A stretch of 43,121 bases of DNA from Opitutales bacterium (lineage in GTDB: Bacteria > Verrucomicrobiota > Verrucomicrobiia > Opitutales > Coraliomargaritaceae): contig JANQXM010000005.1 of NCBI GenBank assembly GCA_030729385.1, forward strand, positions 20,598-63,718, written 5' to 3'. A model generated the notes under the pieces. The model was not told where the DNA came from and searched no databases. It was given only the letters and a program-made list of their open reading frames with translations. Within the stretch, counting starts at the first letter, position 1. Each line of letters begins with the position of its first letter. The translations under genes and the position numbers were made by a program. Shown here in pieces: positions 24,238 to 28,686 of the stretch.

Positions 24238-26961
<2,724 letters not shown>

Positions 26962-26988
26962 GGGAAGAAGTTTGGCTTGTTGTTTTTT

Positions 26989-27017
26989 ACCGCAGATGGA
27001 CGCGGATAAACGCAGAT
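26989..27017 (+). repeat. Left terminal repeat of the GxxExxY unit (CGCAGAT family)
   Basis: The 29-base block begins ACCGCAGATGGACGC and ends AACGCAGAT. It matches the inverted block at 27394-27422 in 25 of 29 positions. It ends on the first base of the GxxExxY stop codon and starts 28 bases upstream of the alaS start. Confidence 0.75.
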
Positions 27018-27406
27018 TATTTTCGGGCAACACTAAGCCACTCGAGCTTTGCGTGTTTGAAGTTGATGATGAGGCCTATCTTGAGCCCAGTGATTTTGAG
27101 ATAGTTGAGCATCTTGCCTCGTTCGTGCTCTGTGATTTTTTCAATGGTCTTCGTATCAACGACAATTTTCTGATGGGTAATCAGATCAGGCACGTATTTA
27201 CCAACTTGGACTGTTTTATATTCAACATCGTATTCTGGTTGTTGAATGTAAGGGATCCCTCGTTGTCCGAATTCGACTACGAGGGCATTCTCATAAATCT
27301 TCTCGTGCAAACCATGCCCGATTTCGTTGAGCACCTCGAATGAGCAGCCGATGATCGCATGTGTTTCCTCGGAATTGAGGAAATCCTGATTGGTATCTGC
27401 GTTCAT
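27017..27406 (-). CDS. GxxExxY protein, PD-(D/E)XK-like fold
   Basis: A 129-residue protein of the GxxExxY family, which is grouped with PD-(D/E)XK nuclease-like proteins. The name motif is GLHEKIY near residue 32, followed by a PD ... VVDTKTIEKI pattern (about 80-100) that fits the D-x-K core. The cellular role is unknown in general. Its ATG lies within the right CGCAGAT repeat, so MNADTNQD is partly repeat-encoded. Its stop overlaps the left repeat, and the ORF fills the space between the inverted repeats. The unit lies between leuB and alaS in the same orientation, as if inserted in a former gene pair. In-frame codons upstream of 27406 read back into leuB and are rejected. Confidence 0.85.
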   Translation of the reverse strand: MNADTNQDFLNSEETHAIIGCSFEVLNEIGHGLHEKIYENALVVEFGQRGIPYIQQPEYDVEYKTVQVGKYVPDLITHQKIVVDTKTIEKITEHERGKMLNYLKITGLKIGLIINFKHAKLEWLSVARK

Positions 27407-27422
27407 CTGCGTGTATCTGCGG
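27394..27422 (-). repeat. Right terminal repeat of the GxxExxY unit (CGCAGAT family)
   Basis: On the minus strand this reads ACCGCAGATACACGC, then AGATG, then AACGCAGAT. It is the inverted partner of 26989-27017 with 4 mismatches, and carries the ATG of the GxxExxY gene at 27404-27406. No clear target duplication flanks the pair. Both outer sides are T- or A-rich. Confidence 0.75.
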
Positions 27423-27440
27423 TTAAAATGACCGCGTCTA

Positions 27441-28541
<1,101 letters not shown>

Positions 28542-28686
28542 ATATAAATGCGTAATTTGTGAAAAGCGGAGTAATTTGGGGCGCGTGGCGAGCGCTTCAA
28601 GCCTTTTCCTGTATGTTTCAGGCATGCGGGCTGAATGTTTTTAGGTTTAGGCTTTGCAGGTGGGGCGTGATTGCTAGCGTCGCGGC

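Follow-up and report, generated by a model that had tools for sequence, protein, structure and literature searches.

A small gene of the GxxExxY family lies between leuB and alaS in the stretch of DNA analysed here (the window: 43,121 nucleotides of an Opitutales bacterium, assembly GCA_030729385.1, contig JANQXM010000005.1, positions 20,598 to 63,718), and inverted repeats take in its start codon and touch its stop codon. What kind of unit is this, and what would its protein do with the repeats? The original prediction, made from the window alone, was of a compact unit, mobile or at least mobilisable, whose PD-(D/E)XK-like protein might itself act on the repeats. Our analysis upholds part of this, namely the compact mobile unit and the PD-(D/E)XK core, and supplies what the prediction had lacked: iterons that vary between cassettes, the exchange of cassettes, a counterpart with a four-helix bundle and a bias toward the sense orientation. 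We lean, somewhat past the even point, toward a minimal mobile element that resembles the REP/RAYT system but has, instead of the transposase, a Cas4-like nuclease that would read its own iterons.

Layout of the cassette

In the window, leuB (27441-28625), the GxxExxY gene (27017-27409; 130 aa plus stop) and alaS (24238-26961) follow one another in that order, all on the minus strand and in one direction; leuB was identified by sequence and is given as the listed ORF, whose true start may be internal. A repeat finder places two arms of 34 nt, 85% identical and 377 nt apart, at 26984-27017 and 27395-27428. Within them lie the inverted 29-nt blocks originally noticed (26989-27017 and 27395-27423), which do match at 25 of 29 positions, and the start and stop codons are placed as described: the ATG (27407-27409, minus strand) falls within the upstream arm, and one base of the stop codon (27017-27019) lies in the downstream arm. 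The placement between leuB and alaS holds as well. From the leuB stop at 27441 it is 12 nt to the upstream arm, and the alaS start (26961, minus strand) is 22 nt from the 34-nt arm, or 27 nt from the 29-nt block. The whole element measures about 445 bp.

The arms are not a unique 29-mer; each consists of three tandem units of about 10 nt (CGCAGAT or CGCGGAT, followed by NN and A). The upstream arm (27395-27428, minus strand) has the iterons CGCAGAT-AC-A, CGCAGAT-GA-A and CGCAGAT behind an AACC lead, and the downstream arm (26984-27017, plus strand), its inverted copy, has CGCAGAT-GG-A, CGCGGAT-AA-A and CGCAGAT behind ACC. Local alignment of arm against arm scores 43, compared with 22 for the best of 20 shuffles; together with the control ORFs described below, these scores rule out a chance origin of the repeats.

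A predicted Cas4-like nuclease

The encoded protein is a member of both TIGR04256 (GxxExxY; 122.7 bits, cut-off 35) and PF13366 (PDDEXK_3; 114.2 bits, cut-off 22). G33, E36, Y39, P74, D75, K87 and Y103 are invariant among 54 relatives, and the catalytic pattern of the window protein reads P74-D75 ... D85-T-K87, with Y103; the PD-(D/E)XK-like pattern first seen in the ORF is thus an intact core, with catalytic residues conserved among those relatives. The family consensus also contains QxxxY, which we take to be the motif of RecB-like nucleases, and the window protein has K99 at its Q position.

A sequence search against solved structures returned nothing useful for the GxxExxY protein. The predicted structure (pLDDT 91) has its best solved match in SSO0001 (4ic1; Z 10.1 over 99 residues, 3.2 A, identity 15-16%), a Cas4 protein, while LHK-Exo and the Holliday junction resolvase Hjc are matched at Z about 7, in a range (below 8) that may mean little. 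As modelled, then, the fold is closest to Cas4, and family, conservation and predicted fold together point to a Cas4/RecB-like PD-(D/E)XK nuclease. What is shared with such nucleases is the fold, the PD-(D/E)xK core and, in the family consensus, QxxxY; in contrast, GxxExxY proteins have only about 130 aa and do without the iron-sulphur cysteines (the Cas4 cluster needs four, and the window protein has one), and here the gene adjoins leuB and alaS, with no cas1, cas2 or CRISPR neighbourhood. One published GxxExxY call stands where another tool saw cas4, with no role given.

Iteron arms at other GxxExxY genes

The original prediction had proposed comparing other GxxExxY genes for flanking inverted repeats. 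At an alignment score of at least 26, inverted arms are called at 50 of 58 GxxExxY loci; of 312 control ORFs on those contigs, 4 have them. These loci come from Verrucomicrobia, Planctomycetes, Desulfobacterota, Proteobacteria, Acidobacteria, Bacteroidota and others, many of them in metagenome bins, and are not all independent, since some are orthologues. Within the order, where the closest named genomes are Coraliomargarita and other Puniceicoccaceae, 43 of 62 GxxExxY loci have arms. Both counts rule out an isolated oddity of the window's genome.

Among the cassettes the unit may be CGCAGAT, CACGAAT, CACRGAT, CGCGAAT, CGTTAAT, CGCAGAG, CGCAAAG, CACAAAA, CGCTTAA or CGCGAAA. Seven GxxExxY genes in the window's genome have seven different iteron units, and the genomes examined hold up to eleven GxxExxY matches each. 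Mapped on a tree of 76 proteins, the unit shows 26 changes, compared with at least 47 in 200 shuffles, a correlation that is partly linkage because arms and gene travel together; judged from this tree, iteron type follows the protein phylogeny, and does so in both arms together. A search for phage matches gave none, and a plasmid search gave four distant ones.

Two further observations concern the loci themselves. One genome of the set (G019) has nine GxxExxY matches; most are fragmentary or interrupted by stops, and it looks as though the family expanded there and then decayed. At L062 (G018:C40), L159, L169 and L185 the genes lie between two full hairpins and not in the loop of one.

Agreement between the arms

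Three units on each side are present in 38 cassettes. Between the left and right arms of these, 89% of the variable iteron positions agree, against 51% between cassettes, whereas the pair of spacer bases adjoining each unit agrees at 50%, against 45% between cassettes; the likeness of iterons inside a single arm is 0.87. An RNA-stem constraint or arm-to-arm copying is therefore disfavoured as the sole cause of the symmetry, since either would match the spacers too. The same figures bear on a purely mutational origin, in which template switching or gene conversion would keep the arms alike with no recognition involved. That both arms differ together between elements would suit such a by-product, but copying would equalise the spacers as well, and the arms are specific to GxxExxY and four-helix-bundle genes; we consider it highly improbable.

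The simplest reading is that each unit is read by a protein, and the GxxExxY protein would be the obvious candidate. That the nuclease acts on its own repeats, as originally suggested, is plausible. Alternatively, the iterons might be operator sites at which this protein or a host regulator controls the gene, with the cassettes spread by ordinary recombination. Conservation of the iteron core would suit any protein binding, and the start codon does lie in or adjoin an arm. Control of the gene, however, needs neither an inverted array right after the stop codon nor many gene-less hairpins, and cassettes have been duplicated with their arms into unrelated flanks (see below), which makes the operator explanation improbable in our judgement.

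Duplication and exchange of cassettes

Near-identical copies within one genome, which the original prediction suggested looking for, do exist: L053 and L064 are 95% identical over 469 bp in unrelated flanks, the similarity ending just beyond the arms. A cassette of the window's genome (L007) and one from another genus (L061) match over 535 bp at 84%, again with unrelated flanks. Both pairs have the appearance of a transposon-like duplication, and comparison of such loci shows that the GxxExxY gene moves and is duplicated together with its arms, as a single unit. The L053/L064 duplicates and the exchange of cassettes at leuB-alaS bear out the compact mobile unit bounded by arms.

Across the family, GxxExxY cassettes at the leuB-alaS junction have arms of the CGCAGAT, CACRGAT or CGCGAAT type. 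In G012 the cassette has an internal deletion but its arms (CACGAAT) are intact, G016 retains a single arm, and G005 a decayed remnant. A four-helix-bundle gene (PF05635), with arms of its own that are different, takes the place in G001, G002, G011 and G019, and some relatives have no cassette. Orthologues in place with the repeats absent, named beforehand as evidence against the unit, were not seen: all GxxExxY genes found at this junction have arms. In G004 and G011 both neighbour genes are about 92% identical, and the former has a GxxExxY cassette where the latter has a four-helix-bundle one. Neighbours that are 92% identical also enclose the GxxExxY genes of G014 and G018, whose proteins are only 66% identical and whose iterons differ; flank homology between these two reaches the AACC of the arm and resumes from GGTT, and a tree with the two proteins as sisters is rejected (AU p=0.025). 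Different cassettes thus occupy one intergenic site in close species, and both pairs disfavour strict vertical inheritance at leuB-alaS. Several independent insertions there are not proven, because a single clade of the seven leuB-alaS GxxExxY proteins is not rejected (AU p=0.52); nor is a grouping of G010 with G021 (AU p=0.43). At the G014 locus (L098) the usual leuB stop is lost, and leuB now ends inside the upstream arm.

A second exchange junction, which we read as gatA-gatB from its protein sequence, holds cassettes whose arms are of the CGCAGAG or CGCAAAG type, hairpins built of CGCAGAT or CGCGAAT units, or neither. The gene-less hairpins there, in G000 (CGCAGAT) and G010 (CGCGAAT), each have the unit of the genome's own leuB-alaS cassette. 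ACGTA-like similarity is present on both sides at gatA-gatB, with no clean empty site for comparison; the junction of G011 was rejected as a true empty site, for its joined flanks match as one but another small palindrome is present. In none of the relatives compared at leuB-alaS and gatA-gatB did we see a clean pre-insertion site together with a target duplication. The hairpins might instead belong to the host, serving to process operon mRNA at junctions, with genes having invaded their loops, and the many species in which leuB-alaS and gatA-gatB hold a hairpin or a cassette would fit. Several species, G015, G022 and G009 among them, have neither, however, and hairpins are present at many other sites; we give this explanation hardly any weight.

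Gene-less hairpins

Repeats do occur independently of GxxExxY genes, which goes against the original prediction in the letter: gene-less hairpins stand at many places. A strict hairpin pattern finds them in 6 genomes, its reversed control in none, and single iteron arrays are present in 21 of 38 genomes (control 0). These hairpins still look like non-autonomous derivatives of the cassettes, dispersed through the genome and built of the same iterons. Arrays are found in 18 of the 19 genomes with a GxxExxY gene and in 3 of the 19 without, an association weakened by its confounding with genome size and kinship; of the three exceptions (G003, G012 and G016), the latter two keep cassette remnants. 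Dispersed arrays also favour the iteron type of the cassette resident at leuB-alaS, which accounts for 49 of the 93 arrays listed for seven genomes, compared with a permutation mean of 27; a count of 49 was reached in 2 of 105 permutations.

Like MITEs, the hairpins are short, gene-less and dispersed between genes. Unlike MITEs, they have no parent transposon with a known transposase that we could find, and the coding relatives seen carry GxxExxY. One genome of the order, G026, has 97 iteron arrays in 3.4 Mb, far above any other genome tested. A gene-less element of about 226 bp is represented by L245 (G010:C1:3481572-3481797), L246 (G010:C1:3925396-3925611) and also L242; two copies are 93% identical, the element reaches beyond the iteron arms, and its outer ends, CCTAAATA/TATTTAGG, resemble terminal inverted repeats.

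Four-helix-bundle cassettes and the 23S rRNA IVS

In size and shape the nearest analogue, by our comparison, is the 23S rRNA IVS. That of Coxiella is 428-444 nt long, has a 28-bp terminal stem (-143 kcal/mol), is cut by RNase III and encodes the S23 protein (PMC4990558). Folded as RNA, the whole cassette has a minimum free energy of -140.9 kcal/mol (z -6.0) with its arms paired. Both are some 430-445 nt long, with one small ORF between inverted ends, enclosed by a strong terminal stem, and both are sporadic at conserved sites; the cassette differs in lying between protein genes, in having iteron arrays for arms and in encoding a nuclease where the IVS encodes a four-helix bundle. An insertion in 23S rRNA is not the case here: the site is the leuB-alaS junction, and the 277 loci examined contain none of the marker strings for 23S rRNA that were tried.

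Cassettes of the IVS family, PF05635, share the leuB-alaS site with GxxExxY cassettes in relatives. PF05635 genes of the order have inverted arrays at 19 of 30 loci (L118-L147), with units that differ from the GxxExxY ones and vary from gene to gene (GGGATGC, AGAAGTTAGG and GGTTTTCGGTT, for example). Here the same architecture comes without the nuclease motif, and mobility therefore need not depend on an encoded nuclease. In three places (G036:C19, G010:C1:965-968 kb and G031:C92) GxxExxY and four-helix-bundle genes lie about 1-3 kb apart.

Between co-directional neighbours, called by a simple ORF finder, the GxxExxY gene is in the sense orientation 27 times and antisense once. Since it nearly always has the sense orientation within an operon, read-through from the host operon is its probable means of expression. 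This bias, the match in length, stem and folding energy to the Coxiella IVS (PMC4990558), and the presence of PF05635 between inverted arms at the leuB-alaS site of sister species would all suit a passenger of the IVS type, whose arms work at the RNA level only through RNase III excision, which moves by host or RNA-based means and whose protein has another job. Pairing alone, however, predicts something other than iteron cores matched between arms next to spacers hardly above the between-cassette level, and has no need of iterons alike inside one arm; the loci examined also lack any marker of 23S rRNA tried. We think such a passenger unlikely, although the arms of a mobile element may in addition have an RNA role like that of the IVS.

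A proposed REP/RAYT-like mechanism

RAYT genes are flanked by REP sequences. REP and REPIN are dispersed gene-less palindromes served by the RAYT (TnpA-REP) transposase, with repeat type following the protein (PMC3116915, PMC8266576). The GxxExxY gene likewise is flanked by inverted repeats of a dispersed, gene-less palindrome family whose type tracks the protein. The systems differ in their enzymes, RAYT being a Y1 HUH transposase, a trait absent from GxxExxY, which falls in the PD-(D/E)XK family as a putative Cas4-like nuclease; moreover, the cassette arms are arrays of iterons of about 10 nt, and the GxxExxY gene is itself multi-copy and moving.

As a minimal mobile element, the cassette would have the plan iteron arm, GxxExxY gene, inverted iteron arm, in about 445 bp. 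The nuclease would bind the iterons and cut or process the element ends as a hairpin, a cruciform or a single strand, and would in this way mobilise the cassette that encodes it as well as, in trans, the hairpins that lack a gene, similar to what has been proposed for RAYT and REP sequences. The arms can also fold into an mRNA stem, and the cassette RNA may be cut out by RNase III as in the IVS, so that insertion would be harmless. Our confidence is less than full because the four-helix-bundle cassettes lack the nuclease, no clean empty site was found and the action of the protein is inferred.

The open-access literature searched holds no description of the cassette design, of the arm sequences or of a role for PF13366, and nothing relevant that pairs a four-helix bundle with inverted repeats; as far as we have found, a design that recurs in several bacterial phyla is apparently undescribed there. 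More tentatively, and with rather less confidence than we have in the mobile element itself, we suggest a widespread, undescribed class of tiny elements, each with a solitary Cas4-like nuclease as its sole mobiliser and with private iterons, which would spread hairpins in trans and swap cassettes at fixed operon junctions; the four-helix-bundle IVS would be a sister class on the same plan. A private iteron that differs from element to element would let several elements share a genome with no cross-reaction.

GxxExxY genes occur in several phyla with no established role, and their iteron arms point to a likely one, as the protein of a minimal mobile element. Since close relatives have either the GxxExxY or the four-helix-bundle kind of cassette at the same site, GxxExxY would join the old puzzle of how the 23S rRNA IVS moves. 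If the proposal is true, a Cas4-like nuclease would drive mobility with neither Cas1 nor a transposase, and a family of dispersed hairpins would be explained.
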